Positions 9,001 through 45,669 of a DNA stretch of 64,000 bases are shown here, piece after piece. A program made the translations under genes and the position numbers. Under the pieces are notes generated by a model that saw only the letters and a list, made by a program, of their open reading frames with translations, had not been told where the DNA came from and searched no databases. Origin of the DNA: Citrus sinensis. Taxonomy: Eukaryota > Streptophyta > Magnoliopsida > Sapindales > Rutaceae. Where the stretch lies: assembly GCF_022201045.2 (NCBI RefSeq), contig NC_068564.1, forward strand, positions 33,695,001 through 33,759,000, in the 5' to 3' direction. How positions within the stretch are numbered: position 1 is the stretch's first letter; every line of letters begins with the position of its first letter.

Positions 9001-12000
9001 ATGGCTTGCAAAACCATGATCCTCTTCCTTCTCCTTCTTTTTTGTCTACCCCTCAATTTGCACTGCACAAGCTCGACAAGTTGGATTAAAGGAGGCTACT
9101 GGACTTCTCGAAGTGAACTCCCCGTTTCTCAAATAAATTCTGGTCTTTTCACTCACCTTACGTGTGCTTTTGCATATCTTAACTCCTCCACCTTCACTCT
9201 CTATATCAATTCGACATATGAAAAATCCTTCTCTAGCTTCACCAACACAGTGAAACGCAAAAACCCATCAGTTGTAACGCTTTTGTCCATCCGGGGTGGT
9301 ACGGCAATCTTTTCTTCAATGGTAAATCAATCTTCTAACAGAAAGTCTTTTATCGAATCCTCCATAGAAACAGCTAGGCTTTATGGCTTTCAAGGCCTAG
9401 ACCTTTCTGGTGTGCTGCCAAGTAAAAGCACCAACATGACCAATTTAGGTATCCTATTTGATGAGTGGAGGGCTGAAGTAACTTCGGAGGCAAGAAACTC
9501 AGGCAATTCTCAGCTGTTATTAGTAATGAAAAGTCATCACTTGCCGGCTATCGATTCAGTGACTTATCCTATAGATTCTATGCTCAGAAACTTGGATTGG
9601 GTACACGTTAGAGCCTATGACTACTATTTGCCTTCAAGGGATAACTTCACAGGAGCTCATTCTGCTCTATATAGCTCTTCAAGTTGGTTTAATACAAATG
9701 ATAGTATAAGAGAATGGTTAAAAACAGGATTTCCAGCTAACAAGCTTGTTCTGGGGCTGCCTTATCATGGCTATGCGTGGCAACTTGTTAATCCTAATGA
9801 GAATGCAGTTGGTGCCCCGGCTGCAGGTCCGGCTATCACCATGGATGGCTCCATGGGGTACAAGTCCATCAAAGCATTCATTCGAGATTATGGCTATGGG
9901 GTTGCCTCATTGTATAATGATTCTTATGACGTGAATTTCTTCAGCAGTGGAAAAAATTGGATCAATTTTGATGGTGCAGAGGCTATTACAGCAAAGGTTT
10001 CTTTTGCAAAAGAGAAAGGACTACTTGGTTACAATGCATTTCAGCTATCCAATGATGATAAATGGGAGCTTTCTTTAGCTGGTATGCAGTTGTTAATTAC
10101 TTATAACTCTTACGATCAATCTTTCTCAACCAAGAGGAGTTTTGAATTATAAATTTTGTGACATATTCTGATTAGCTTAACAAACAATTTTCCCAGCTCA
10201 AGGACAAGGTCAAGATCAGAAAAACAAAGCAAGGTTATTGGTCATTATTTTGGTCACAGTAGCCACAATTATTTTTCTTCTGAGCATCATGATTTGTTAC
10301 TTGCAAAGACGAAGGAGATTACTCAAGCCAGGAGGTAACTTCTAATTATAAGTACAATAGTATGGCTCTTCTCCATTGTCAACTTTAATAAAACAGAGGA
10401 CAACAATTCTCTGTACAAAAGTTGTTAAAAAAACAAACAACTTTCTGTGCAAGGAGTTCATAGTCTGCATTTTAGAAGATCTGATGAAATAAAAGGGAGC
10501 ACCATTTTGGACTAACATTTGCTTTTCTCATTCGTTTTTGGTTTAGGACTTGTGGTCACTGCAAGAAGATCAATATCCAAGCTGAAACACAAAATATCAA
10601 CTATCGAAAACCTTAATTATGATGCCAATAATCTGCGAGTATTCACTTTTACAGCTATTCAAGAGGCTACAGATAACTTTTCAAGTGAGAATAAGCTTGG
10701 TGAGGGTGGATATGGACCTGTGTATAAGGTAATATTTTTCTCATTGGTTATTTCTGTTGTGGGACTCCTGGGTTGATTCTGTATACCAAATGTTTGACAA
10801 ATAATCTCACTGGTTGTTACTGCAACAGCCGGAATATAATGTTCAAACAGTTGAGAAAATGATAAGTTTTAAACACTATGGTATGCCATCTGTTATTGTC
10901 AGCAGTCATTTTCAAATTATCATTATTACATGAGTGTGGCCATTTGCCAGGGGAGATTACCAAATGGACAGGAAATGGCTGTAAAGAGACTTTCCAGAAC
11001 TTCTCATCAAGGACTTGAGGAGTTCGAAAATGAAGTTAAGCTTACTGCAAGGCTTCAACATGTGAATCTATTACCAGTTTTGGGAATTTGCACACAGAGG
11101 GAAGAAAAGATGCTGATTTATGACTACATGCCGAATAAAAGCTTGGATTTCTACATCTTTGGTAAGCGGACTTTATGGTTGCAAGTGAATAGCATAGTAT
11201 ATTATGCATGCTTAATTGGCCTAACATTTAAGCTTTAAACAAGCAGAGGTAGACCCAGTTAAGAATTCAAACTTTTAAAAACTTGAGATGTCTAAAATCT
11301 TCCTTTTTCCCTTTTAATTAAAGTGAGATGAGTCTGATTTTATGCAGATCTGCGAAGGCGTTATCTCTTAGATTGGAGAAAACGTGTTCATATTATCGAA
11401 GGGATTACTCAAGGACTTCTATATCTCCAAGAATACTCAAACTTAACAATAGTTCATAGAGATTTGAAGGCAAGCAATATTTTACTTGACCACGAGATGA
11501 ACCCCAAGATATCAGATTTTGGTATGGCTAGAGCTTTTACAAAAGATGAATGTGAAGCAAACACAGGTCGGATAGTTGGAACATAGTGAGTATACTGCCC
11601 GCGTGTTATTTGATAGGACATGTTTACATCCCTTCCCTGTTGAATAATTGACAATGTTTTCTTTGATATACACATTGCAGTGGCTATGTTCCCCCTGAAT
11701 ATGTAAAAAAGGGTATCTACTCCATGAAATATGATGTTTATAGTTATGGAGTTCTTCTTCTACAAATCTTAGGTGGTAAAAGAACTTCATGCTATTATGG
11801 CCCGAACGAAAGTCTGAACCTTTTAGAATATGTAAGTTGCCATTTCTTCCATAACTGAATACATAATTATGATTTATATTTTATTGTGCATTATGAATTA
11901 CTTTAAAATACAAAGCTGAGTAAAAATTATTTTTTTCCAGGCATATGGATTGTGGAAAAATGGTGAAGGAATGGAGTTTATTGATTCATCACTTGATGAT

Positions 12001-12249
12001 TCCTCTTCAGCATGGAAACTCATGAGATGCATGCAAGTAGCTTTGCTCTGTGTCCAAGAAAATGCTGCAGATAGACCAACCATGCTTGAAATTCTTGTGA
12101 TGCTCAAAAGCGAAACTGCAGACATAAAAACTCCGAAGAAGCCTGCTTTTTCAGTTAAAAGAGACAACGATGAGATAAGTGAATGCATGTTGGAGGCTAA
12201 CATTTATTCTGTTGATGATGCAACAATTACACAGCCGGTACCTCGATAA
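9001..12249 (+). CDS. chitinase-related receptor-like kinase (GH18 ectodomain, TM, Ser/Thr kinase)
   Basis: Seven exons: 9001-10081, 10197-10334, 10547-10728, 10951-11161, 11348-11585, 11681-11831, 11941-12249. They sum to 769 codons plus stop. Order: signal peptide (residues 1-22), GH18 class V chitinase-like ectodomain (about 27-360) with many N-glycosylation sites, one transmembrane helix in exon 2 (about 373-395) followed by a basic stop-transfer, then a kinase with P-loop GEGGYG (about 458), AVKRL lysine (about 479), HRDLKASN (about 573) and DFG (about 594). The tail ends ITQPVPR, like S-domain (SD1) receptor kinases. The GH18 motif DxxDxDxE is degenerate: Q131, D134, S136, V138 in [10 protein letters not shown]. 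The catalytic acid is lost, so the ectodomain is probably a ligand binder. The family resembles tobacco CHRK1, a plasma-membrane receptor kinase with an inactive chitinase-like ectodomain. The kinase looks active. The ligand is not known from sequence; chitin fragments are an inference. Confidence 0.93.
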
Positions 12250-12529
12250 CCGCATACACTTTCATGTTACAAGATTGGAGAAGATATTGAAAGTATTTTC
12301 ATTTCCCCAATTACGAATGGCACTCAATCATTAAGGTACATGTTTTTGGTCTCAATCTGGTAACTTCAAGCAATATCGGGGGGATTTCAGATTGCTCTGC
12401 GTCCTTTGAGATCATTGAACCCGCTTGAAGAGTCGGGAACAATCAGACAACTTGCATATATATTTCCTCAGGGTTCTTTCATTTCACTGTTAATAGAAAA
12501 TAGTTATACTACTGATTCTTTAGCATCTT

Positions 12530-12795
12530 GTTAAGATAGTCAAATTGATTAGTCACGTGCTAGTTAATATAGTTAGTTAAATAGAATCTGTTATACATGA
12601 TGACGTGGCTGCTTATGTGGCAAATTAGTTTTAGTTACTAGCTCAGCTGATTTGCATGTAAACAGAATGAAGAATATTCCAGATTGTAGTATATAAACAT
12701 GTGTAACTAATCAAACGATTCAATGAATAAGATTCAAGTTCTTTCTTCTCTGCTTCTCTGATTTTTCCTTTTCATTTTCTTAGTAAACAAACAAA
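12530..12795 (+). mobile_element. possible Copia-type solo LTR fossil
   Basis: The stretch begins TGTTAAGATAG and contains a TATA-like element (GTATATAAACATG) followed by ATTCAATGAATAAG and a pyrimidine-rich run. This is the layout of the promoter/polyadenylation part of many plant Copia LTRs. It ends near AGTAAACA in an AAAC simple repeat that blurs the right edge, so no clean target duplication could be fixed. No internal coding region follows. Confidence 0.4.
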
Positions 12796-13250
12796 CAAAC
12801 TCATCTTTCTTAATTTTATGCAACAGTATAGGTTATTGATTAGCTCACTCTTGCCCCAAGTCCCTTCTGAAGAGGTGAGTTTGATTATTTCTAGGAGAGC
12901 ATAACTTTTTGTTGTGCCAGTATAAATTCTTGGGATTTTTTTGGCTAGTTGGCTATGCCATATAAAAGATGTGGAGAACTATGATTCTGTGTAGATGAAA
13001 GGATATTTTGGAATCTTTTTTTTTCCCTAAAATTTACAGATTTTGAATTGAATAGGTAATAGGTTTCCTAAGTAATGTTAAGAGCCACACTAAGCATGAG
13101 AAGTCAGACACTGAAGCACCTGGTATCAATCAGATAATTCATCATCTTGTACTGCACCCAGGTTGCTTAATACATGTCCACCCATGAATTAGAATGCAAC
13201 AAGGCATGGTCATTCAATAAGCCAGAGACTCCATGAAGCATGTGATGCAT

Positions 13251-13414
13251 GTGGAGTCATTTTTTTTTTGGTATATTAAACTATCTAGTATTCGAATTCG
13301 GTAGGACCATTAGGGCGGCAAAACTCTCCTAACAAGTATTTAATACAACTGTATTTTTAAATCTCGTACCGAAGACCTTGGTTAAATTAGAACAGCCTCG
13401 CGTGGAGTCATTTT
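13251..13414 (-). mobile_element. SINE-like retroposon with target-site duplication
   Basis: An element of about 135 bases is flanked by a direct repeat GTGGAGTCATTTT (13251-13263 and 13402-13414). On the minus strand it ends in an A-run (T-run at about 13261-13269 on the plus strand) just inside the left repeat, as expected for a poly(A)-tailed retroposon inserted in minus orientation. It has no coding capacity. A tRNA-like head with clear A and B boxes is not obvious, so it may be 5'-truncated. Confidence 0.7.
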
Positions 13415-14363
13415 AATTTACTACTAATCCAACTTCCTAGAAAGAGAGGAGGCCAAAAAGTCCATGACAAATTTAAATATAAGCCAGGTTTTGGATATGG
13501 GGCCTTGTCGATACTAGCTACTAAGACGATTTCTTTGGTTGAATTTGACTTCTGACTATGTTATAGAAAAACCTTCATTTAGTTGAATCCAAGGCGTCAT
13601 TTCGAATTGAGCTTGTTTCTATTTTTTTGACTTGAGCTCGTTTTTGTTTTTGTTTCCATTCAACCGGGACCCATGTCTACGTGAAAGACCCTTTGTAAAT
13701 TTTTCTATCCTTCTCTCGAGTCTCAACTTATAAAGGAAAATCCCAAATATTACCTGAGAAAATATGAACACGTATGATCGATAATTAACGAGAGATAAAA
13801 TAACCATCGGCTCTCTTTCGCTCTTTCTATTATAGGTCAACAAAGAAAAAAGTCGTGGACTTGTAAACAAAATAAGAAGCCAAAGTCTTAGATTCTACAG
13901 GTTCACAAATTTACTTTTATCTCACGTTAAGTGATTCTTTATTTGACATATATTACCAGCTAATAGTTGCAATGCAGATATTATCGATATATCACGGCAC
14001 TACAAAAACTAAAAAAGTATTGGTGAGGCGTAAAATTCTGAAATTCATATGGAAATAGTGGAAGTGTCCAGAACGTGTTGAGGATCGGAAGCTGAATCAA
14101 AATGACATGCAGTGTTGTCTCCAATTTCCCAGCCTTTTGCAGGTCATTTGTTCAAAGTTCAATAAAAGAGCCCTATATGTCTCCTGCTTGCAGGAAGCAC
14201 TTTTATGTTCTCTCTATTAAAAGTCAGCTTAAAAGGTCGCCATGCTGTTTCATTCTTTCTTTCCCATAAGAAACGAAACATCTCATATTCCTTATTTAGA
14301 TATACATCTTTTCTTCCTTAAGATGAATAATTAAAAGTGATTTCACGTATGCTAAGTGCTTTG

Positions 14364-17000
14364 ATGGCCTACAAAATCGTGACCCTCTTCCTTCTCCTTA
14401 CCCTTTCTCTCCCCCTCAATTTGCAATGCACAAGATCGCCAAATTGGATTAGAGGAGGCTACTGGCATGCTCACAGTGAACTCCCCATTGCAGAAATACA
14501 TTCTGCTCTTTTCAGTCACCTTATGTGTGCTTTTGCTTTTATAAACTCCTCCACCTACAATATTTTCATCAACTCCACCTCTGAACAATTCTTTGTAATC
14601 TTCACCAACACTGTAAAACACAGAAACCCATCGGTTGTAACACTTCTATCAATCTGGGGTGGTGCAATCTTTTCTTCAATGATAAACCAATCTTCTAACA
14701 GAAAGTCTTTCATCAAATCCTCCGTAGAAATGGCTCGGTTTAACGGATTTCATGGCCTAGATCTTCATGGTGTTCTGCCAGACAAAGGTACCAATATTAC
14801 CAAATTAGGGACCCTATTTGATGAATGGAGGGCTGAAGTAACTTCTGAGTCAGAAAATCGGGCAAGTCTCAACTATTATTGGTAATGACAAGTCATCACT
14901 TGCCAGCTCTTGAATCAGTGAGTTACCCTTTAGATTCTATGCAGAGAAACTTGGACTGGATACATGTTTTAAACTTTGACTACTATTTGCCTACGAGGGA
15001 TAACTTCACAGGTGCTCATTCTGCTCTATACAGCTCTTCAAGATGGTTCAATACAAATGATAGTATAACAGAATGGTTAAAAAGAGGATTTCAAGCTAAG
15101 AAGCTGTTTTGGGGCTGCCTTATCATGGCTACGCATGGACACTCGTTAATCCTGATGAAAATCCTGTTGGTTCTCCGGCTACAGGTCCAGCCATCACGAT
15201 AGATGGCTCCGTAGGCTTCAAGTTCATTAAAGGATTCATTCGAGATTATGGTTATGGGGCTGCTTCGGTGTACAATCATTCTTATGTTATGAATTTCTTC
15301 AGTGCGAAAACAACTTGGGTCAATTTTGATGGCGTTGAGACAATTAGATCAAAAGTTTCTTTTGCAAAAGAGAAAGGGCTGCTGGGTTATCATGCGTTTC
15401 AACTTTCCAATGATGATAAATGGGAGCTTTATTCAGCTGGTATGCAATTGTTGATTACTTATGAATCGAAAAAAATTTGAATTATAAGCTTTTTGAGACA
15501 TTCAGATTAACTGAACAAAAACCATTTTCACAGCTCAAGAAGTGGGTAATGATCAGAAAAACAGCCCGCGGATGTTGGTAATTATAGGGAGATCAGGAGT
15601 TCAGGACATGCGGTGTAAAAGATTGTGGAGTTTTTCTTCAAAATATATCAATATGTTTTTCTAGAAATATGGCAAGCCTTCTGTTATGAGTGGTCGTCAT
15701 TATCAAATACCAAATTTACATGGGCATCCATGTCCTTTTGACAGGGGATATTAGCCAAGGGACAGGAAATAGCTGTGAAAAGACTTTCCAAAACTTCACA
15801 ACAAGGGCTTCAGGAGTTTGAAAATGAAGTTAAGCTTACTGCAAGACTTCAACATGTAAATCTAGTTCCGGTTGTGGGAATTTGTACAAAGGGGAGAAAA
15901 GATGCTGATTTACGAGTATATGCCAAACAAGAGCTTGGATTACTACATTTTTGGTAAGAAGACACTGCGGTCCTAGGGACAATGATTTCGTACTCCACGC
16001 TCTTAATTCGATCACATTTAAGCTTTACAGAAAGCATTCAGTCTTAAGCGGTCTGAAATGTTTCTTTCTAGCTTTTGCGATTGAAGTAATACTTTATGAG
16101 TCTGATTTTATGCAGATCCTCACAGGCGGCATCTCTTAGATTGGAGGCAACGCGTGCATATCATTGAAGGGGTTACTCAAGCACTTCTATATGTCCAAGA
16201 GTACTCAAATTTCACAATTGTTCGTAGAGATTTAAAGGCTAGTAACATTCTGCTGGACAAAGAGATGAAGCCCAAGATATCTGATTTCGGAATGGCTAGA
16301 GCTTTTACAAAGGATGCATGTGAAGCAAACACAGGCCGGATAGTCGGAACATAGTAAGCACATTTCCTACATGGTATTTGGCAAAAATATTGATTTTTGA
16401 TCTTTTCTTTGTTGAACACAATTGATAATAGATATTTTCTTTATAACACATTCCCCCTGAACATAAGAAAAGGTATATACTCCATGAAATACGATGTTTA
16501 TAGTTATGGGGTTCTTCCTCTACAAATCATAAGTGGCAAGAGGACATCACGCTATTATGGCCGCAATGAAGATTTGAACCTTTTAGAATTTGTAAGTTAC
16601 CTTTTCTTTCCTGTTTAAACTCATAATTCAGATTTTTTCCTGCATGTACATCTTGAGTTAGTTTAAGTTACAAAGCTCGATAACAAGTAAGTTTTTCCAG
16701 GCATATGAGTTGCGGAAAAATGGAGAAGGTACGGAGTTTTTTGATCCATCACTTGACGATTCATCTTCGGCATGGAAACTCATGAGATGCATGCAAATAG
16801 CTTTACTATGCGTCCAAGAAAATGCTGCAGATAGACCAGCCGTACTAGAAATTCTCACGATGCTCAATAATGAAACTGCAAACATAAAGGTTCCTAGGAA
16901 ACCTGCTTTTTCGGTTAAAAGCGATGAAGATGAATGCATACCAGAGGTGAAAATTTGTTCTGTCAATGATGCATCTATTACACAACTGATACCACGGTGA
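14364..17000 (+). pseudogene. broken GH18 receptor-like kinase copy
   Basis: Closest relative of the gene at 9001-12249, in the same order and orientation. It starts at MAYK, aligned with MACK of the intact copy; an upstream in-frame ATG at 14337 is less likely. The ectodomain motif reads GFHGLDLHGV, also lacking the catalytic glutamate. One-base deletions shift the frame near 14850 and near 15105. The transmembrane exon (from about 15535) stops homology after MLVII; the rest of that exon and the whole exon carrying the P-loop are missing. The next kinase exon (from about 15745) has another one-base loss near 15893, so CTKGE...MLIYEY is out of frame. The HRD motif reads RRD at about 16220. 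The splice acceptor and first codons of the PPEY exon (about 16445) are lost. The last exon (about 16701-17000) is intact. It cannot make a full receptor. An ectodomain-only product would also be frameshifted. Confidence 0.9.
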
Positions 17001-17997
17001 CCGCATAGACTTTCATGGTACATAATTGGAGAAGATATTGAAGTATTTGTATTTCCCCGTTTAAGTATTCTACTCAACCATTTTATACCTTGTTTTTGGT
17101 CTCATCTCAATTTGGTCATATACTCAGTTAATGCTTACTGCATCCTGACCGTGAAAACTACCTTAGAACTATTTTGCTCTTTGAGCACTCAGTATGGCTT
17201 CTTCCAGTCACTCATGTTTTACGCTCTGATCAATATTATTGGAACTATATCTGCTACAGTTGTATCTGGCCCCTTATTTCCTGAAAAATGAATTGTCTTT
17301 AGAAGGAAACAGAAAAAAGTGATCACAACACAAAGCTAGCAATGGTAGAATTAATGCAACTATTTACAGCTGCTCGATGGTATAATTTTTTTGGGGTTTC
17401 TTACTTAGTTGGCAATGTAAAGTTAGGAGACTATGATTCTGGATGTATGAGTGGAATTCTAGAAGAAATTATTTTCCACAAATTTAAAAAATTTGTAACG
17501 ACACTAGCTGGCTTGGTAGTTCGTGGGTCACACTCGTCCGGAGATATACTATTGCCTAAATTAGAAGTGTGCTAGTTGACAGAAGAAATCTAATTTCCCG
17601 CAGAGATTGCTTACCTTATTAGTTACATAAATTATTCTAATTTTAAATTATTTAAATAATTAGTTAAGAAAATTTACATTAAAAGTTAAAATAAAATAAA
17701 GATAAAAGCAGTAACAGAAATCACCAAAAAATTAAGACACTAAAACATCCGACCTTAACCAATCTAATTAATCCTCTATCTACATTATCAAAAATTTATT
17801 ACCCTGTTGATGGTTGAATAACCCTAATCCCTTTGATATACTTTCTTGAGCAATATCAAATATAATCTCATATACTATTATACTATATCTCCATTTGCAT
17901 TACAATATATGAAAACTCATTAATATCTATGGTATTATTGGATTAAGTATTAATTATATGAATCAAATTAGTACATCTTTGTCTCCCATGTAATTGA
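17001..17997. other. intergenic, AT-rich
   Basis: 3' flank of the broken receptor kinase copy and AT-rich sequence up to the LTR fossil. The 77-codon open frame at 17342-17575 has no recognisable homology and I regard it as chance. Confidence 0.5.
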
Positions 17998-19655
17998 TGT
18001 AGGACAAATCTAGTCATAGTAGGTCTGTAAATGTAATTTCCTTTTTTTTAGTTTAATTAGGATTTATCTTATATTTTCTTGTTTAAGTCATATTCCTTTT
18101 CTTATAAGGAAGTATAATTTTATTAGGAATAGAATAATCCTAACTAGTATAAATATGATTGTAATGCTCATTTCTTTACACAAGTTTCTCATCAATAATA
18201 TTCAGTATTTCTCAATTGAGATATTTTTTTCTTTTGTGAGAGTTTTCTTCTTGAGTTTTCAAGAACGTACGCTAGAACGAAATCTAGTATTGCTTCTGCG
18301 CTGCATTAAGTGGTATCAGAGTCTTTTTCTATGCCAAGAAGAGCTTTCCTACCCATCAACCACCCTTTATACACAATTTCTTCCTCTACCATCCATTAAT
18401 TCCATCAAGTCAAAAAAACAAAAAAAAACTCGAGCCATCTTAACAACCACCGCATGCGGCTTCTGCCGCCACCATTTTTTTTGTCTTTTGGTTGATCTTA
18501 TCTACCATCATAACCAGAAGAAACCGGCCATCAAAACCCGACCCATCTCACCGCCATCCACCATGGTCACTGGAAAATGCACCAAACAGCCGCACCAACC
18601 GCCGGTCAATCCGCGGAACTTGATAGCCAACACCACTACCAATCCGCCCACCATTATCGGCCCTTTCTTTCCAACCTACTCCCACTGCCATCCGTCAGCT
18701 GGTTCACTGGAAACCGAAACCAACCTCTTCCACAACTTTGATTCAACTTTTCGGTCAATCCACAACGAATTTAGTCAAACCACCACCTTCATCACACTCA
18801 CCACCATTACATCTTCTAGATCCACCTATCTTAGTCCAATTTTCTGATCGATTGTTGCCGACAACACAAACTTTTTCTTATTTATAATTTTTTCCCATTA
18901 ATTTTTCTTAAATTATATTATTGCCCTATAATTTTATGTTTTCTTTAAAAAACCAAAAAGCCAAAAAAAAAGAAATTAAAAAAAGAAGAAGATTGGTATA
19001 GTGAGATATAAAGAAGATGATGATGATCATTTCTATTATGATGGATTTACTAATTCTAAGGATATTTTCGATTGGATCTTCAAAATTGAAGATACTCTTG
19101 AAGATATTCTAGAGGATAAACATGTCGAGTACGTGTCTTCTAAATTAATGGGACATTCGTCACAATGGTGAACAAACTTACAAGCAACACGAATTGGACA
19201 CGAAAGATACAAGATTCAAACTTGGCATATATAGTATGCACAAGAAAATGAAAGCTTATTTTATTCCTCCTAAATATTTTCGGACGATCCATCGTAAATT
19301 TGATTAGTGTCAACAAGGTACAAATTATGTTCGATTCTATGAATCTCAACTTCAGAACCATTGTTGTTGTGTGAATCTTTTTAAAGATGATGAAAATACA
19401 ATTTCAAGATTTGTGAAAGGATTACGTGTTGATATAAGTCATATTCCTTTTCTTATAAGTAACTATAATTTTATTAGGAATAAGATAAGCTTAACTAGTA
19501 TAAATAAGCTTGTTATGATTGTTTCTTTACACAAACTTCTCATCAATAATATTCAGTATTTCTCAATTGAGATATTTTCTCCTTTGTGAGAGTTTTTTTT
19601 ATTGAGTTTCAAGAACGTACACTAGAACAAAATCTAGTATCGCTTCCTCACTACA
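17998..19655 (+). mobile_element. LTR retrotransposon fossil, gag region only
   Basis: A 5' LTR of about 308 bases (17998-18305, TG...CA) is followed after five bases by a primer-binding site TGGTATCAGAGTC complementary to initiator methionine tRNA. A second, shorter LTR copy occupies about 19430-19655 and shares the blocks CATATTCCTTTTCTTATAAG, CAATAATATTCAGTATTTCT and AAGAACGTAC. The internal region is only about 1.1 kb and carries a gag-like relic (DGFTNSKDIFDW; later ISRFVKGLRVDI). No protease, integrase or reverse transcriptase is seen. The element is clearly broken, with several breaks and a shortened 3' LTR; the two LTRs have diverged, so it is not recent. No clear target duplication was found. 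Confidence 0.8.
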
Positions 19656-21425
19656 TCATTAATTCATAGCATCCATTACAGAGAACAAAGTGCGTAAATC
19701 TCTTATTGGTCTCATTATGTATTCTTAAATCATTTAAATATTGATTAAATATTTAAAAGTCTTAAGTATAATAATAAACAATTAATCATAGAATAATAAA
19801 ATAAAAGTAATACAAAATTATAGAATTAAATTTCCATTGTTAGGCTATATCGTAACCCTATTAAAATAAATTTAGTTCATGATATAAAGAGAATCCATAA
19901 AATTAATTAGCAACATTCAACCAAAGTAATTAAGAGAAGAATTAAAAAGTTTAGCCGTTGGACTGTGGTGAAATCTTCTTCTCCATGGCTTATCTTTAGT
20001 TCTCATGCCTCTCGACTTCTTCTAATTTCAGTTGCAGCTCCTATTCAATATTCTTTCAATCTCATTCTTTTAAGCAAATGTGCTCCCTAATCTCCAATGT
20101 ATTAATGATTTATTCCCAAAATATACCTATAATAAAAAAATAAAAAATTTAAGATAAAATCTTGAATAAAGAATAATAAAAAGGCATAATTTAAGTTAGA
20201 TAAACATTAAAATCATTTATATGTTATAAGCACATCATATACCACCTTCAACTAGGGATGGCACAATAACTCAAACTTGGATAATCTGGATGATTTAGGT
20301 TGGGTCTAACCCGCATTTGATCAAAATAATATATAGAATCAGGTATTAGTGTTCTTAAATCGGGCGTATTCGGGTCTAGAACCAAAAATGCTGAAACTAG
20401 ATATCTAAAACCTAGAGGATAGATTTTACTTTTCAAATACAAATATAGAAGGAAAAAATCAAGAAGACTATCACCCCCATTATCAATTGGACTATGGTAT
20501 GGTTTTACATTAATAATATCTGCTGGTGTATTATCTATGTCATTAATGAGATCATCATTGTAGTGGAATAAAAAGTAAAGATGTTGCAGCGATGTCGTCA
20601 ATGGTAACACCTTTTCTTTGACATCTACTAGTGTAATGTCATTCTCATCAATGAGATCATCTTTACAGTATATTAGAGAGTAATGTTGTTGCACTGATGT
20701 CATTGTTGGCAACACCTCTTCTCAAATATAAGAAACGAAGATGCTTGCCGTATAGGAAGTTTGAGTTTCCCGCATCATGGGCTCCTAAATTAGAATTTTA
20801 GGGGTAACAAAAATAAGAAGAAAATGGTCTTTTAATGCTCTTATATATATATTTTTAAACTTTGTAGGATAAAATAGTTTTTTAATTCATTTAGGGTAAA
20901 ATGATTATTTTTATTTAAATTCTTCCATAGAATTTAATTCTACCAATGTTAAAGTGGTTGATTAAATGCAAATATACAAAATAGAGGGTGCTGCTAAGTT
21001 ACATTAGCTGTAACTTACAGCTCACCTAAAATTAATTTTCCATAACCCCTGAATTATTTGAGTAGTTACAATTAGAGGTTTAAAGAAATTAGTTTTTAGG
21101 TGGTTGTATGTTACAACCAATGTAACATAGTAAGTTCCCTAACTAATACGTAAGAGACGAAGTTGTCCATCATACACGTCAGATGTGACATGCAAAATTG
21201 AATTTTCTTGGCTTTCCATTCAAGTTGGTTAAATTAACATAAATATCGACATTTATTATTTTGCCAACCGTCGAAGATTTTTTGGCTTTAGCTCTTGACC
21301 TTTTTCTAGTAGAATCTGCGGTGAATAGTAGCTTTCACATGTGAAAGTCTTGAAGCAAATCACCAAGCAAGCATGTGCCATAGCGCACTGTACCTTGACT
21401 GGGTATCGACCGCTACCTTTCTCTC
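19656..21425. other. intergenic between LTR fossil and third cluster member
   Basis: AT-rich. It contains a diverged tandem repeat (about 20516-20725) and, at 20253, a TAGGGATGGCA terminus resembling hAT ends. About 21240-21425 is the promoter of the next receptor kinase, with W-box cores (TTGAC) near 21296 and 21394. A 155-codon minus-strand open frame (20248-20715) spans the repeat and looks non-genic. Confidence 0.5.
20516..20725. repeat. two-unit diverged tandem repeat, period about 105
   Basis: ATGAGATCATCA near 20546 and ATGAGATCATCT near 20651, with flanking similarity (CTGCTGGTGTA versus CTACTAGTGTA, and GGTAACACCTTTT versus GGCAACACCTCTT), define two copies about 105 bases apart. 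In the minus-strand frame both copies read as related acidic peptides, but I see no gene. Confidence 0.7.
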
Positions 21426-24391
21426 ATGGCAATAAAAAGTATTCGTGTCCTCTTCTTTATCTTTCTTTCTTCTTTTCAGTTAGAGTTTTCAGATGCACAG
21501 ACCTGGATCAAAGCTGGTTACTGGCTAGCTGGCCGTGAGTTTCCGTTGTCTGACATAAATTCTGCCTTGTTTACTCACCTTATATGTGCTTTCGCTGAAG
21601 TTGATTCTTCCACCTACCAGCTTTCCATTTCCTCTGCCAATCAGCAATACTTCTCAATCTTCGCTAACAGCGTTAGGCGAAAAAACCCATCAATCAAGAC
21701 TCTTCTGTCAATCTGGAATGGACAGAATTCAACGTATCAATCCATTTTGGGCAACAAAAATATTAACCCTTCAGTTTTATCTTCAATGGTTGGCGACTCT
21801 TCTCACAGGAAGTCTTTCATTGAATCTTCAATAAGAACTGCAAGGCTTTATGGATTTCAAGGCATTGACTTGTTCTGGCTCTGGCCTAACAGTACGGACT
21901 TGAATAGTCTGGGAATTCTTTTAGATGAATGGAAAGCTTCTGCAAGTGATCAGCCAGAGTTGACGTTGTCAATGGCTGTTCGTTATTCGCCAACTCATGA
22001 AACCGTGAGTTATCCTATTGATTCAATGAAGAAGAACTTGAATTGGGCACATTTAGTGGCATACGACTATCATATGCCTTCGAAGGAAAATGTTACAGGT
22101 ATCCATGCTGCTTTATACAATCCTTCAAGCAATATTAGTACTGATTTCGGCATAAGAGAATGGTTAAGAAGAGGGTTCCCTGCAAACAAATTGGTTCTTG
22201 GTTTGCCATTTCATGGCTATGCATGGACATTAGTGAATCCCAATGACAACGACGTAGGCGCCAGGGCTTCGGGCCCCGGAATAACCATCGATGGTTCAAT
22301 GGGCTACAAATTCATCAGAGCATTTATTCAGAACTATGGTTATGGAGCTGCTCCGGTTTACAATGCTTCTTATGTAGTAAACTTATTCACCAGTGGAGCA
22401 ACTTGGATCAATTTTGATGGAGTGGAGACTATAAAAGCGAAGATTTCTTATGCCAAGGAGAAGAATTTACTGGGTTACAAGGCTTTTCAACTTTCTAATG
22501 ATGACAATTGGGCACTTTCTCGAGCAGGTATGTAATTACACAAATAATATAGGAATTTTAGCAGTACGTTTTGCCTAAACGTATTCAAATTTTGGCCATA
22601 GAATGTTATTTATAAGGAAACCTACATTCTATATTGGCAGCTCAAATAGAAGAAAATAATGATAAAGACAAGCAGAGGTTACTGCTACTAATTTTGCTTC
22701 CAATTGGTCTGGTTCTTATCCTAATAGCCTCCCTGATATGTTACTTCCGAAGAACTGCAATCAAGTCGAAAGGTAATATATATGCACTCTGAGTGATATA
22801 ATGACCCTTTTTTTAAAAAAATTTTGTTACTCCTTATAGTGAAATGCTCCATTTGCATTTCAGTGATGATAATTCTAGGCAGAAGAAACTTGCGTACCCC
22901 AGGAACTAGTACACCAGCTGCCGAATATTTTGACAGCGATACTCCTAATCTACAAGTATTCAGTTTTTCCGACATCAAGGCGGCTACAAATAATTTTTCC
23001 AGTGCAAACAAGCTTGGAGAGGGTGGATTTGGCCCCGTTTATAAGGTAAAATATACCCACACATACGGCTTTCCATGGAATTTTATCTCTATGTATGAGT
23101 GGTAAAACGTTGAGTTTATTTGCAGCTCGGAAGAGAAAATGGTAACCGAATGGAATCCCCTTTTTGCAGGGTAACTTGCCAAGAGGCCAGGAATTTGCAG
23201 TGAAGAGATTATCAGCAACATCTACTCAAGGACTTGAGGAGTTCAAGAATGAGGTTTCTCTGACTGCAAGACTTCAACATGTAAATCTACTTAGGGTTTT
23301 GGGATACTGCACTGAGAGAGATGAAAATATGCTGATATACGAATACTTGCCCAACAAAAGCTTGGATCTCTATCTCTTTGGTTATTACCTATATCTTTGG
23401 ATTCTGCCATTTGCTTAACTCCTATGTGTATCTGTAATTTTTATGAAATGTGATTGATGATCATTGATCAATGTTATGTTTTCAGACCCAATTAGACGAT
23501 ATGTTTTGGATTGGCAAAAGAGAGTGAACATCATTGAAGGGGTTACTCAAGGGCTTCTATATCTTCAAGAGTACTCTAATTTCAGAGTCATTCACAGAGA
23601 TTTAAAAGCCAGCAACATTTTATTGGACAATGAATTGAACCCCAAGATTTCAGATTTCGGAATGGCTAAACTTTTCAGAAAAGATGTAGACGAAGCTAAC
23701 ACAGGGAGGATTGTTGGAACATAGTAAGCAATCAAATTTAGCATCTCTGTCTTTCTTTCTTTTTCCTTTTTCAAATACTTAAAAAAATCTTATTGATATA
23801 TGCATATGCAGTGGCTATGTTCCTCCTGAATATGTTAAAAAAGGAATCTACTCCATGAAATATGATGTCTACAGCTTTGGAGTTCTGCTTCTGCAGATCA
23901 TAAGTAGCAAGAGGAACACCCGTTATTATGGCACGAGTGAAAACTTGAATTTTCTTGAATATGCAAGTCTTTCTCTTTTCTCGTTTTAGTTTTCTATTTG
24001 ATTTTGACAAGAATATATAATTAATGAATATGACTTTTAAGAAAGAACAATTAGTTACGTTCACGCATTTGCTTAGATGCAGGCATTTGAGCAATGGAAA
24101 GACAGCAAAGGTAAGGAATTTATCGATCCATCACTTGATGACTCATCTTCACCATGTAAGCTCTTGAACTGTATGCAAGTGGCTCTGTTATGTGTACAAG
24201 AAAATCCTGAGGACAGGCCATCAATGTTAGAAGTTTCATCCATGCTGAAAGATGATTCAATGGCCATTGCTGCTCCAAAAAGGCCTGCATTTTCAGCAAA
24301 GGGTGATGAAAATGCAGAAACCAGCTCCACATCGCGGCAAGAAATTTATTCATTCAATGATCCTGAACTTTCACAGTTAGAACCCAGATGA
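21426..24391 (+). CDS. chitinase-related receptor-like kinase (GH18 ectodomain, TM, Ser/Thr kinase)
   Basis: Seven exons: 21426-22527, 22641-22772, 22864-23045, 23170-23380, 23486-23723, 23812-23962, 24083-24391. They total 774 codons plus stop. Exons 3 to 7 have exactly the lengths of the first receptor kinase in this cluster (182, 211, 238, 151, 309). Signal peptide to about residue 24 (...EFSDAQ), GH18-like ectodomain, transmembrane helix in exon 2 ([19 protein letters not shown]), kinase with [25 protein letters not shown], and tail LSQLEPR. The GH18 motif is [12 protein letters not shown]145, D148, F150 and L152 replace the catalytic pattern, so hydrolysis is not expected. The ectodomain has an 11-13 residue insertion after LSIWNGQN relative to its neighbours. 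The sixth intron uses a GC donor (AT|GCAAGT at 23963), and the fourth has a weak GTTATT donor. Likely a plasma-membrane receptor; ligand unknown. Confidence 0.92.
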
Positions 24392-25125: not shown

Positions 25126-26368
25126 ATGGCATCTCTCCACTATGTTTGCTCGTTACTTTCTATACTTGTTTGCTTGATAACCATCGCTGCCACCGGACCT
25201 ATTACGGCGTCACCTCCGCCCGTTAAAGCAGCTTATTGGCCTTCATGGGCTGAGAGTTTTCCTCCATCGGCCATAAACACGAATTTGTTCACGCACATTT
25301 ACTATGCTTTTCTCATGCCAAATAACGTCACATACAAATTCAACATCGACAATTCGACGGCCATTCAACTCTCCAACTTCACCACCACCCTCCATCACAA
25401 AAACCCGCCGGTAAAGACACTTTTCTCCATCGGTGGTGCCGGTGCAGATACTTCAATCTTTGTTGACATGGCTTCTCATCCCAGGTCCCGTCAAGCTTTC
25501 ATACACTCATCTATTCAGGTTGCACGTAAATTTGGATTTGATGGGCTGGACCTTGATTGGGAGTTCCCTCAAAACCCAAAAGAGATGCATGACTTGGGCC
25601 TCTTGTTGGATGAATGGCGGCTCGCCCTCGAGAGGGAAGCCAAGGCCACGTGTCAACCTCCTCTGCTGTTTACTGCCGCCGTGTACTTCTCCGTCGACTT
25701 TTTCGTAGCCGACGTCTACAGAAAGTATCCAGTAGGCTCAATTAATCGGAATTTGGATTGGATTAATGCAATGTGTTTCGATTATCATGGAGGCTGGGAT
25801 AATACGACAACGGGAGCCCATGCGGCATTATACGACCCTAAGAGTAACTTGAGCACCAGCTACGGGCTCAAGTCTTGGCTCAGGGCCGGGGTGCCCAGAA
25901 GCAAACTGGTTATGGGCTTTGCCGCTGTATGGGAGGTCGTGGAAACTCAAGGACCCAAATTCACATGAGATTGGATCACCGGCGGTTGACGTGGGCCCAG
26001 GAGATAAAGGGTTAATGCAGTTTGTGCAAGTGGGGGAATTTAATAGGATGAATGGTGCCACTGTGGTGTATGACGTGGGAAGTGTATCCACATATTCTTT
26101 TGCGGGCGCAACGTGGATTGGGTATGATGATGAAATTTCAGCCACAATCAAGGTTGGGTTTGCTCAAGCCCTTGGGCTTCGAGGGTATTTCTTTTGGGCC
26201 TTGAGTTATGACGACGAATGGAAAATTTCAACCCAAGGTAGTCAAATTTTCCATTAAAAGTTGTATTATTTTATTAGTTTGGATTTGGTTAATTTGGCAC
26301 TACAAAAGCTCATATTTTTTTATTGTATTTTTTTTGCAGTTGCCCGGGCATGGATTCTCAATGATTGA
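25126..26368 (+). pseudogene. class V chitinase (GH18), intact catalytic motif but frameshifted
   Basis: Secreted GH18 chitinase, which would hydrolyse beta-1,4-GlcNAc polymers in the apoplast or vacuole. Signal peptide about 1-28 (hydrophobic to TGPITASPPP), then the GH18 barrel with SIGGAG and the full catalytic motif GFDGLDLDWEFP (D139, D142, D144, E146), and later YDYHG-like FDYHGGWDN. The frame breaks at 25918-25920, where GGCTTTGCCG has one T too many. The expected LPLYGRSWKLKDP continues in the other frame to about 26237. A short second exon (26340-26368, VARAWILND) follows a phase-1 intron 26238-26339. With one base fewer the gene would be 379 codons, the usual family length. As written the product stops after about 280 residues, losing the last third of the barrel. 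A sequencing or assembly error in the T-run, or a null allele, are both possible. Confidence 0.85.
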
Positions 26369-41554: not shown

Positions 41555-44500
41555 ATGGGGGACATTTCTTTGGAGGAGATAAAAAATGAAAATGTTGATC
41601 TTGTAAGTATAAGATGTCCATGTTTTTCTCATCACCCGAATGGAGGCAATGTCAATGTGATCAATGTGTGTATGTGATGTGCTTATGTTAATGGCTACTT
41701 GTCTCTGTGTGTGTTTGTGCAGGAGAGGATCCCCGTGGCTGAAGTCTTTGAACAACTAAAATGTACCCCGAAGGGACTGACTACAGCGGAAGGAGAGAAG
41801 AGGCTGCAGATATTTGGCTACAACAAACTTGAAGAGAAAAAAGAGAGTAAATTACTCAAATTCTTGGGATTTATGTGGAATCCTTTATCATGGGTTATGG
41901 AAGCTGCAGCAATCATGGCCATTGTTTTGGCCAATGGTGGCGGCAAGCCCCCGGATTGGCCAGACTTCGTTGGTATTGTCGTGTTGCTCTTTATCAACTC
42001 TACTATTAGCTTCATTGAAGAAAATAATGCTGGCAATGCCGCTGCTGCTTTGATGGCTGGTCTTGCTCCCAAAACCAAGGTAATGATAACTCATTATCTA
42101 TTCACACGTCCATAGCTTCTTTTTTTTTTTTTTTTTCCCCATCTCTTTTCTTCCAGAATTTGGTTCATTGTGTATATGTTTTTTGCTTTTAGGTGTTGAG
42201 GGATGAGAAATGGAGTGAACAAGAGGCCGAGATTTTGGTACCAGGGGATATAATTAGCATCAAGTTGGGAGATATTGTCCCGGCTGATGCACGACTTTTG
42301 GAAGGAGATCCTCTGAAGATTGATCAAGCTGCTCTTACTGGTGAATCTCTCCCTGTCACGAAGAATCCAGGTGATGAAGTATTTTCTGGTTCAACTTGCA
42401 AACAAGGTGAGATTGAAGCTGTTGTTATCGCGACTGGTGTGCATACCTTCTTTGGCAAGGCTGCCCACCTTGTCGACAGCACCAACCAAGTTGGCCACTT
42501 CCAAAAGGTAATGCCTGGCATTTTTATCACTCGTGATCCGACTTTCATCACATTAAGATTATGTGCTGATCAACTGTTTCGTGTGTTCTTGATTGATTAG
42601 GTGTTGACAGCAATAGGTAACTTCTGTATCTGCTCAATTGCGGTGGGAATGTTCATTGAGATCATTGTCATGTGGGCGATTCAGAGAAGGAGCTACAGAG
42701 ATGGTATTGACAATCTATTGGTGCTCCTCATTGGAGGAATCCCGATTGCCATGCCTACAGTCTTGTCCGTGACAATGGCTATTGGCTCTCACCGCCTTTC
42801 GCAGCAAGGTGCAATCACCAAGAGGATGACAGCCATTGAAGAAATGGCTGGCATGGATGTTCTCTGCAGTGACAAGACTGGTACTCTCACCCTCAACAAG
42901 CTTTCAGTGGACAAAAGCCTTATTGAGGTGTGTGACTTAAAAGCAAATAACAAATACTGGGCCATGAGAAAAACGTTAGTACTGTATAACCTTTGGTTGT
43001 ATTTGCAAATGTAGGTATTTGTCAAAGGTACGGACAGCGATGGTCTTTTATTGGCAGCGGCCAGGGCTTCCAGGGTTGAAAACCAGGATGCTATTGATGC
43101 TTCAATTGTAGGGATGTTGGCAGACCCCAAAGAGGTATAAAATTCGATCAATATATCATAAAAATTGGTTGCTCATGTTAGTCCAATTTCTGCAACGCTG
43201 AAGTGAGGCAATGAATATTCAGGCAAGAGCGGGAATCACTGAGGTCCACTTCCTTCCATTTAACCCAGTTGACAAGCGCACTGCAATCACCTACATCGAC
43301 AGCAATGGAGACTGGCACAGAACCAGCAAGGGTGCCCCTGAACAGGTAGAGGGATTCCCCAGCTTTTGCACAATCAGTGGTATTTCATTTGCAATTTTGC
43401 AGAATCTTACCGTCATTTGTCTACCAGATCATTGATCTATGTGGACTCAAAGGTGAGATGAGGAGAAAAGCCCATCAAATTATTGACAACTTTGCCGAGC
43501 GCGGTCTCCGTGCTCTGGGAGTTGCCAGACAGGTAAATTATCCTGACTGCGCGCTACTTGTTCATGACAACTTCTGAATGGTTATTATCAGCTATGGCGA
43601 GCTTCTAAGCAAATTTAATTTGACCATCTACTCTCTCTATTTCCAGACGGTACCGGAAAAGACCAAGGAGAGTGAAGGATCACCATGGGAGTTTGTGGGT
43701 CTTTTGCCTCTATTTGACCCTCCCAGGCACGACAGTGCAGAAACTATTCGCCGTGCTCTTGACCTTGGAGTCAACGTTAAAATGATCACTGGTGATCAGC
43801 TAGCCATTGGCAAGGAAACTGGTCGCAGACTCGGCATGGGCACAAACATGTATCCCTCATCCTCTCTTCTTGGTCAATCCAAGGATGAGTCCATTGCTTC
43901 AATGCCAGTTGAAGAACTTATTGAAAAGGCTGATGGCTTTGCAGGAGTCTTCCCTGGTAAATTCATTCTTTCTGTAACTCAACTAAAGACAAACTAGAAA
44001 ATATATTTGCATTTGAGCGGTTTAACTAAGCTAGTTTTGGGTAAACATGCAGAGCACAAGTATGAGATCGTTAAGAAGCTTCAAGAGAGGAAGCATATTT
44101 GCGGCATGACAGGAGATGGTGTTAATGATGCTCCAGCTCTTAAGAGGGCTGACATTGGCATTGCTGTTGCTGATGCAACTGACGCAGCTAGAAGCGCTTC
44201 AGACATTGTTTTGACAGAGCCGGGATTGAGTGTCATTGTGAGTGCCGTGTTGACAAGCAGAGCCATCTTCCAGAGGATGAAGAATTACACAATCTATGCA
44301 GTTTCCATCACCATTCGTATTGTGCTTGGATTCTTGCTTGTTGCCCTCCTCTGGAAGTTCGACTTCCCACCGTTCATGATCTTGATCATTGCCATTCTCA
44401 ATGACGGAACCATTATGACTATCTCCAAAGATAGAGTCAAGCCCTCTCCTATGCCTGATTCATGGAAGCTCAAGGAAATTTTCGGCACTGGCGTTGTCCT

Positions 44501-45669
44501 TGGAACTTACATGGCTCTTGTTACTGCATTTTTCTTCTGGCTTATTCATGATACTCGTTTCTTCACTGTGAGTGAACGAATCAAGATCCTCGATAAAACT
44601 AATAATAATACTAAAGCAGAAGCTGATGCTAATACTCTTAAAATTGCAGAATACTTTTAATTTGAAGGAAATCCACGAAAAACCAGATATGCTTTCGGCA
44701 GCCCTGTATCTCCAAGTGAGCATCATCAGTCAAGCACTCATCTTTGTGACAAGGTCAAGGAGCTGGTCCTTCGTTGAACGTCCTGGTGTCATGCTCGTTG
44801 GTGCATTTCTTGTTGCACAGTTGGTCAGTATCAAACCTCATTTAGTTGGTTTCGTATGCTATAGAGATGATTGCATTGCTTGTTCTAACTTTTTGACACT
44901 TGGTCAATCAAGCTTGCCACCATTATCGCGGTGTATGCAAAATGGGAATTTGCTAGGATTGAAGGCATTGGCTGGGGATGGGCGGGAGCCATCTGGATTT
45001 TCAGCATCATTACTTACCTCCCTCTGGATCCTCTCAAGTTCGTGATCCGCTATGCTCAGAGTGGAAAGGCCTGGGATAACCTTCTTCAGAACAAGGTATC
45101 AAACTAACAACAATTGAGAAAACAACTTTTAATTAAGCTCCTTTTACCAGAAAATCCTATTACTACTCATTTTATTCATTCTTTTCTTTATTTTTTTTTA
45201 AATATTTTAAATTTTTTATGCTATGTAGACTGCATTCACAACCAAGAAAGATTACGGAAAAGGAGAAAGAGAGGCACAATGGGCAATGGCTCAACGCACA
45301 ATGCATGGTCTTCAAACTTCAGAATCTACGGTAAATGAAAAGAATAGCAACCGTGAATTGACTGAGCTTGCCGAGCAGGCCAAGAGGCGTGCCGAAGTTG
45401 CAAGGTTAGGTACAAGAGGGAAGATAACACTGTCATGCTTTGAAACATGACACTGCTTCTCTCAATAACCCAATTTAAGAATTCTACAAAAAGAGCTCTT
45501 AGCATTCATAATGTTCATACACATAAGAACAAAACTCTTAGAAATTCCTTTTTTTTTTTTTTTTTTTGGCAGGCTGAGAGAACTTCACACGCTGAAAGGG
45601 CATGTTGAATCAGTGGTCAAGCTGAAGGGATTGGACATTGAAACCATCCAACAACACTACACTGTGTAA
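41555..45669 (+). CDS. plasma-membrane H+-ATPase (P-type, P3A)
   Basis: Thirteen exons: 41555-41602, 41723-42079, 42193-42507, 42601-42927, 43015-43134, 43223-43345, 43428-43532, 43647-43956, 44053-44567, 44650-44823, 44913-45095, 45229-45404, 45573-45669. They give 949 codons plus stop. The enzyme pumps protons out of the cell using ATP. Visible: actuator TGES, phosphorylation motif [11 protein letters not shown] (aspartate about 331), nucleotide-binding KGAPEQ, hinge [18 protein letters not shown], transmembrane segments around [16 protein letters not shown] and [15 protein letters not shown], and the autoinhibitory C-terminus ending IQQHYTV, whose penultimate threonine is the 14-3-3 binding site when phosphorylated. 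Residues such as [17 protein letters not shown] and the QHYTV end look closest to the AHA6/8/9 (pollen-type) subgroup; this is a memory-based judgement. A short intron (44568-44649) interrupts the variable TM7-TM8 loop. Confidence 0.96.

Follow-up and report, generated by a model that had tools for sequence, protein, structure and literature searches.

Receptor-like kinases of the chitinase type are less studied than other classes (PMC10573068). Tobacco CHRK1 combines a class V chitinase-related extracellular domain with a kinase and, without the catalytic Glu, is inactive as a chitinase; it responds to fungal and viral infection and affects development and cytokinin balance (PMC10573068). A 2017 review counted 91 plant sequences with an extracellular GH18 domain and an intracellular kinase, and took the ectodomain as active (PMC5485988). 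One soybean chitinase-related agglutinin (CRA) homologue carries transmembrane and kinase domains, and the available text reports that no tandem duplication of soybean CRA genes was detected (PMC6272470). Among the soybean proteins GmGH18-20, GmGH18-18 and GmGH18-32, one is of class V with a kinase and two carry PAN/apple and kinase motifs (PMC11855358). Here, we analyzed a 64-kb stretch of Citrus sinensis contig NC_068564.1 (C9:33695001-33759000, hereafter the window), which holds two intact GH18 receptor-like kinase genes, A and B, and compared the pair with a paralogous cluster on contig C8. We propose, with a probability of about 0.7, that dead chitinase folds were reused as receptor ectodomains, one branch being conserved and the other diversifying. 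The CHRK1-type architecture and its missing Glu are already known; in our searches of open-licence papers, we found no report of a multi-gene cluster of GH18 receptor kinases whose former active site is under positive selection.

Genes A and B encode CHRK1-type receptor-like kinases

A and B are CHRK1-type receptor-like kinases, each with a class V GH18 ectodomain, one transmembrane segment and a Ser/Thr-type kinase. The features of the two genes are as follows (aa, amino acids).

9001..12249, plus strand: gene A, GH18 receptor-like kinase, seven exons, 769 aa (spliced model, Pfam GH18 and kinase)
9001..10081, plus strand: gene A exon 1, GH18 ectodomain preceded by a hydrophobic signal-like N-terminus (spliced model, alignment)
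9385..9420, plus strand: gene A degenerate catalytic motif, Glu to Val and third-position Asp to Ser (alignment to 3AQU and 3ALG)
10039..10041, plus strand: gene A strand-8 Phe replacing the -1 subsite Trp (alignment)
10197..10334, plus strand: gene A transmembrane exon, hydropathy 3.11 (spliced model)
10547..12249, plus strand: gene A juxtamembrane and kinase exons 3-7, with a DUF3403-like tail under the family cut-off
21426..24391, plus strand: gene B, GH18 receptor-like kinase, seven exons, 774 aa (spliced model, Pfam)
21426..22527, plus strand: gene B exon 1, signal-peptide-like N-terminus (under the hydropathy threshold used) and GH18 ectodomain
21852..21887, plus strand: gene B degenerate catalytic motif, Glu to Leu and third-position Asp to Phe (alignment)
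22485..22487, plus strand: gene B strand-8 Phe replacing the -1 subsite Trp (alignment)
22641..22772, plus strand: gene B transmembrane exon, hydropathy 3.15 (spliced model)
22864..24391, plus strand: gene B juxtamembrane and kinase exons 3-7

The spliced models are free of internal stops and their exon phases match. Eleven of the 12 introns are GT-AG, and the remaining one, in gene B, is GC-AG. In both genes, exon 1 alone holds the whole GH18 domain, which scored 178.4 bits in A and 184.4 bits in B against the Pfam model, and the best kinase model scored 143.7 bits in A (PF07714) and 147.2 bits in B (PF00069), all above cut-off. GH18 and protein-kinase were the only Pfam families above cut-off, with no B_lectin and no PAN; in this respect A and B differ from the two soybean PAN/apple proteins. 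The kinase Lys (AVK), HRD and DFG are present in both. The N-termini were judged by hydropathy and by eye: that of A peaks at 2.08, and that of B stays under the threshold of 1.6.

The best solved matches to the ectodomains are tobacco NtChiV (3ALF) and Arabidopsis AtChiC (3AQU). The match to 3AQU has an E-value of 5.8e-88 for A and 6.9e-87 for B, so the resemblance is not due to chance. Unlike A and B, these two proteins are chitinases with the motif GFHGLDLDWEYP, and their solved chains have no kinase. RobpsCRA (PDB 4URI), a chitinase-related agglutinin, uses the class V fold for binding (match to gene A, E = 1.6e-69), but it keeps DxDxE, and its solved chain likewise lacks a kinase. CHRK1 itself, compared by its published description only, shares the class V-type ectodomain, the kinase and the missing Glu. 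A first-pass annotation, made from the letters of the window, had described two intact genes keeping the GH18 fold, kinases keeping the Lys, HRD and DFG, and an architecture like that of CHRK1; the open spliced models, the Pfam and 3AQU matches and the available account of CHRK1 bear this out.

The catalytic residues of A and B are lost

The motif letters and coordinates given for A and B in that annotation are correct, and its reading of the motif needs adjustment. It had counted the Glu and two Asp as lost, in different ways in the two genes. In the alignment with the solved tobacco and Arabidopsis enzymes, the catalytic Glu and the Asp two residues before it are indeed absent from A and B, the middle Asp is retained, and the replacements at these two positions differ between the genes. 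The first position of DxxDxDxE does not fit that description: it is Gln in both A and B, and since active plant class V chitinases have His there, its Asp is not a receptor-specific loss. The receptor-specific losses within the motif are thus only the third position (Asp to Ser or Phe) and the Glu (to Val or Leu).

Two changes outside the motif, which the annotation had not recorded, are common to A and B: the strand-8 Trp is Phe and the strand-7 Tyr is His. The strand-6 Tyr-Asp is retained in both. In legume class V chitinases, the mutants W364A and W361A, affecting the equivalent strand-8 Trp, are non-functional (PMC4967823). Because the motif Glu and Asp are lost and the strand-8 Trp and strand-7 Tyr are replaced, chitinase activity of A and B is very unlikely.

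A paralogous cluster on C8 shares the loss

A genome-wide Pfam search for GH18 (300 Mb, 11 contigs) gave 36 matches, of which we read those in the window, in a stretch of C8, and two solo genes on C9 and C1. The C8 stretch (C8:25955001-26145000, 190 kb) contains 11 open GH18 exons of the receptor clade, all on the minus strand, plus fragments. Kinase exons 3-7 follow closely and in order in 10 of the 11 copies and are scattered in the remaining one, C8_128264. A pattern search, which can miss others, recognized a transmembrane segment in 8/11. With these further copies in the clade, the view that only A and B matter was rejected. The C8 cluster and the intact window pair also set this genome apart from the soybean CRA genes mentioned above, and the available account of CHRK1 mentions no multi-copy cluster with a diversifying cleft of the kind described below for C8 (PMC10573068).

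The catalytic Glu is missing in all 13 open receptor-type ectodomains that were read (A, B and 11 on C8), in contrast to the active ectodomains assumed in the 2017 review, and the third-position Asp is likewise missing in 13/13. The remaining subsite residues took another course on C8, where the Tyr of MxYD is changed in 11/11 copies and the strand-8 Trp is retained in 10/11. The first-pass annotation had suggested a phylogeny of GH18-kinase proteins as a check. In our tree of the 13 receptor ectodomains and three intact-motif GH18 proteins, the receptors form one clade (support 98/96), within which A and B group at 99/99 and the C8 copies at 100/99. The receptor clade persisted when the catalytic motif was masked (96/94); both trees flag long branches for the three chitinase-type rows. 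Since the Glu is absent from all 13 and these form one clade, the simplest account is that it was lost in their ancestor, probably once, and the catalytic loss would thus probably be ancestral to the receptor family.

Two C8 copies stand out. C8_45673 (about 25.997-26.001 Mb) combines an ectodomain from one subclade with a kinase from the other, and this kinase has an internal stop; ectodomains and kinases appear to be reshuffled inside the cluster. The kinase of C8_89092 (about 26.041-26.042 Mb) reads YRD in place of HRD, and this copy may signal without normal kinase activity.

The C8 ectodomains are under positive selection

Selection was analyzed with an in-house codon-site program (models M0, M1a, M2a, M7, M8 and M8a, simple posteriors), and models were compared by twice the difference in log-likelihood (2dlnL). 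For the C8 ectodomains, the M1a/M2a comparison gave 2dlnL 58.97 in a seven-gene clade (p = 1.6e-13; omega, the dN/dS ratio, 10.6 at 2.7% of sites), 19.0 in a four-gene clade (p = 7.5e-5) and 55.94 in all eleven genes (p = 7.1e-13). The M8a/M8 comparison agreed (p = 8.8e-15). The signal was still significant under four random topologies and a star tree, and 21 null simulations, which were free of recombination, gave 2dlnL of at most 4.2. For the C8 kinases, the same M1a/M2a comparison gave 2.30 (5 genes), 0.31 (4 genes) and 0.49 (10 genes), none of them significant; high M2a posteriors at many sites of the four-gene kinase set were not used, as the test itself was non-significant (p = 0.85). 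Over whole domains, the M0 omega was 0.57-0.72 for the C8 ectodomains and 0.21-0.29 for the kinases.

The variation can be seen directly at the former active site. Columns of the ectodomain alignment are counted from 0, column 154 being the position of the catalytic Glu and 155 the next. In the seven-gene clade, this pair reads SQ, TE, YL, PH, NS, SW and SW, and the neighbouring positions are otherwise invariant. At the DNA level, a 35-base pattern around this site is identical at 29 fixed bases in six copies, all of which differ from one another in the remaining six, which make up the Glu codon and the next one. Further variants at the six free bases occur in a broken C8 copy (one mismatch) and in a C7 fragment (three mismatches). 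This C7 fragment (C7:24608207-24608614), a stretch of GH18 with stops, has another residue pair at the former Glu position.

Other sites of the seven-gene clade with posteriors above 0.9 are columns 202 (loop A), 229 (strand-6 loop) and 302 (loop B); column 370, which adjoins the strand-8 Trp, is selected in the eleven-gene set. In the class V relative MtNFH1, specificity for Nod factors depends on loops A and B (PMC4967823). The columns aligned with these loops vary on C8, but MtNFH1 itself is an active hydrolase. We defined a cleft set of 26 of the 342 columns from the sugar contacts of insect OfChtI (PMC3975886) and loops A and B of MtNFH1 (PMC4967823), assigned by motif and HMMER alignments. 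OfChtI Phe309, for which no column could be assigned, was left out. OfChtI Trp223 corresponds to column 231 or 232; with 232, the results for the four- and eleven-gene sets are weaker and those for the seven-gene clade unchanged.

Positive selection in the C8 ectodomains is enriched in this cleft set. In the seven-gene clade, four of the five sites with posteriors above 0.8 fall inside it (p = 1.3e-4), as do 4/7 above 0.5 (p = 8e-4), and none of 500 random column sets reached the excess of amino-acid change (pN, the nonsynonymous proportion) seen there. In the four-gene clade, three or four of nine sites above 0.8 lie in the set, depending on one uncertain column (p = 0.019 or 0.0018), and its pN excess was reached by 1/500 random sets. 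For all eleven genes, the count is six or seven of 18 sites above 0.5 (p = 0.0011 or 0.00012).

Genes A and B are conserved

The window pair behaves differently. Between the A and B ectodomains, dN is 0.253 and dS 1.81, giving an omega of 0.14 that is rough because dS is high; the kinase omega is 0.10. The ratio of nonsynonymous to synonymous proportions (pN/pS) is 0.26 in the cleft set and 0.32 outside, and the observed difference was reached by 257/500 random column sets. The view that the cleft is where A and B diverge fastest was rejected, as the cleft set shows no excess amino-acid change. Purifying selection acts on this old pair, and its cleft is not hypervariable. The first-pass annotation had named a cleft evolving without constraint as evidence against its proposal; these ratios indicate constraint in A and B. 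Its description of the two as diverging receptors, however, fits them poorly, and the diversifying cleft is found on C8 instead.

The kinase part resembles bulb-lectin receptor kinases

In a search with one kinase exon of gene A, the GH18 receptor copies of both clusters ranked first. The four best matches outside these clusters, three on C7 and one on C2, were 69-73% identical (150 of 1126 candidates scored). At these four and two more distant loci, the kinase exon blocks mostly align over their whole length. No GH18 was found at the six loci; their ectodomain contains B_lectin in 6/6, PAN_2 in three and S_locus_glycop in two. A first search, which ranked intron-poor kinases of 36-41% identity on top (129 of 2022 candidates scored), was set aside, because it scored exon by exon and thereby favoured such genes; the one-exon search is fairer.

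Bulb-lectin (S-domain) receptor kinases thus share the exon blocks of A and B and have the closest non-GH18 kinase exons examined in this genome, but carry B_lectin rather than GH18 outside. Because the closest non-GH18 kinases are of this type, the comparison suggests an ectodomain swap, in which a GH18 exon would have replaced the lectin-type exon. A DUF3403 tail occurs in S-domain kinases. The soybean GH18 proteins with PAN/apple and kinase motifs would fit a link to bulb-lectin kinases (PMC11855358). The bulb-lectin receptor kinases clustered at C7:9.33-9.41 Mb have, among the candidates scored, the closest kinase exons outside the GH18 clusters and are a possible donor lineage.

Other GH18 genes in and near the window

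Two further members of the window array lie beside the intact pair.

About 14349..16997, plus strand: GH18 receptor-kinase pseudogene between A and B, nearest to A, motif GFHGLDLHGVLP
25126..26257, plus strand: fourth GH18 gene of the array, downstream of B, no kinase, intact motif GFDGLDLDWEFP, one frameshift at about 25.9 kb

The GH18 part of the pseudogene is spread over three frames and one kinase exon is split between frames; tblastn detected no juxtamembrane exon. No kinase exon was found after the fourth gene, whose readable part shares 51% identity over 235 columns with the solo C1 GH18 gene, its nearest relative among those read. This gene, with its catalytically intact motif, directly adjoins the dead receptors and provides a contrast case. 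A solo gene of the class V chitinase type (C9:33541497-33542441, intact motif HGLDIDWEYP) lies about 160 kb from the array, and no kinase exon was found within the 10 kb read around it. Elsewhere in the window, open frames at 43998-44660, 46814-47722 and 61337-61894 resemble, by eye, a plasma-membrane proton ATPase, a WD-repeat protein and an RNase III/Dicer-like protein, respectively.

Discussion

We propose the following course of events. A class V chitinase fold would have lost catalysis, probably in a single event in the ancestor shared by all family members, and this dead fold would have been fused with a transmembrane segment and kinase derived from a bulb-lectin (S-domain) receptor kinase. 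The GH18 domain would now act as a ligand-binding ectodomain, and binding outside would activate the kinase inside. The A/B branch is old and conserved, a pattern expected if its ligand is fixed and perhaps endogenous; the C8 branch is recent and expanded and has a diversifying cleft, as expected for a receptor tracking a variable, probably non-self, ligand. In this scheme we infer the binding of a ligand by the cleft, the activation of the kinase and the identities of the ligands. The roles of CHRK1 in infection and development would fit a family with two such courses. For C8, we consider the chances evenly balanced that the former Glu position and the specificity loops form a hypervariable recognition pocket under positive selection, with a constrained kinase.

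Several observations weigh against this proposal. The selection tests cover paralogs of a single genome and rely on our own program. The cleft set was chosen after the selected sites were known, from an insect enzyme and a homology model; its positions were taken from papers because AlphaFold models of the ectodomains, built from two-row alignments, were low in confidence (mean predicted local distance difference test, pLDDT, 31.9 for A and 33.1 for B). The sugar contacts alone are less enriched, with p-values from 0.0039 to 0.39 over sets and thresholds; in the seven-gene clade they range from 0.015 to 0.15, and the four-gene clade gives values as high as 0.39. Even when the cleft set is widened by one column, 3/7, 7/12 and 9/18 of the selected sites (posterior above 0.5) lie outside it. 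The first third of the C8 ectodomain is without a selection signal, and in the C8 kinases M8a/M8 gives borderline p-values of 0.056 (5 genes) and 0.061 (10 genes). With respect to the kinase origin, DUF3403 reaches only 17.7 bits in gene A, compared with a cut-off of 28.9, and is not seen in gene B.

Among the alternatives, the one that survives best, although we think it unlikely, is that the ectodomain binds a protein, such as a secreted microbial hydrolase or inhibitor, through the variable rim of the cleft. Loops A and B and residues beyond the direct sugar contacts are among the selected sites, and the substitutions freely alter charge and size, which would suit a protein better than one sugar. 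However, the variation extends to the deep position of the former Glu.

Somewhat less likely again is that A and B bind chitin oligomers in the old cleft without cutting them, in line with the first-pass annotation, which had suggested receptors for chitin-like or other glycans. The strong GH18 match and the retained strand-6 Tyr-Asp speak for it, and a Glu-to-Ala mutant of OfChtI still holds (GlcNAc)2 (PMC3975886). On the other side, the Trp that stacks under the -1 sugar has become Phe, the strand-7 Tyr contact His, and the third-position Asp is gone, and the class V homologue RobpsCRA recognizes high-mannose N-glycans instead (PMC6272470). Judged from the residues, chitin thus appears somewhat disfavoured as the ligand of both A/B and C8, because the -1 subsite residues lost in the two branches are not the same and a class V homologue recognizes another glycan; a protein ligand fits about as well.

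It is improbable that relaxed constraint, gene conversion or decaying copies, and not selection, underlie the C8 variability. Such processes are at work in the cluster, where tandem copies recombine, C8_45673 is chimeric with an internal stop, the kinase exons of C8_128264 are scattered and one kinase has lost its normal HRD; the null simulations, moreover, contained no recombination. Yet the site omega is about 10 and not 1, and M8 is strongly preferred to M8a. The signal also persists in the seven-gene set without C8_45673 and C8_128264 (5 genes; 2dlnL 45.86, p = 1.1e-10). When each third of the alignment was given its own tree, the p-values were 0.36, 8.7e-13 and 0.017 for the seven-gene clade and 0.18, 5.8e-9 and 2.8e-5 for the eleven genes, the middle third carrying the strongest signal. 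Finally, catalytic or transglycosylating activity on another substrate is very improbable: one C8 copy has a Glu one place after the usual position (GLDLSWTE) and the related MtCHIT5b gained Nod-factor hydrolysis by single or double loop changes, a single one being enough (PMC4967823), but none of the 13 ectodomains has the Glu at its position or the third-position Asp.

Selection in plant chitinases was reportedly described by Bishop in 2000. In tomato, Arabidopsis and rice, sites of class V chitinases were found to be positively selected by M8, and the available text does not mention a kinase (PMC6473868). If the C8 cleft is indeed a hypervariable recognition pocket, this plant would possess a family of cell-surface receptors, probably of immunity, whose variable part is the cleft of a (beta/alpha)8 barrel and not a set of leucine-rich repeats. 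If the pocket is fast-evolving, each copy would be a natural binding variant, and close paralogs would form a ready set for a ligand search. The family would then show how an enzyme fold turns into a recognition module after catalysis is lost.

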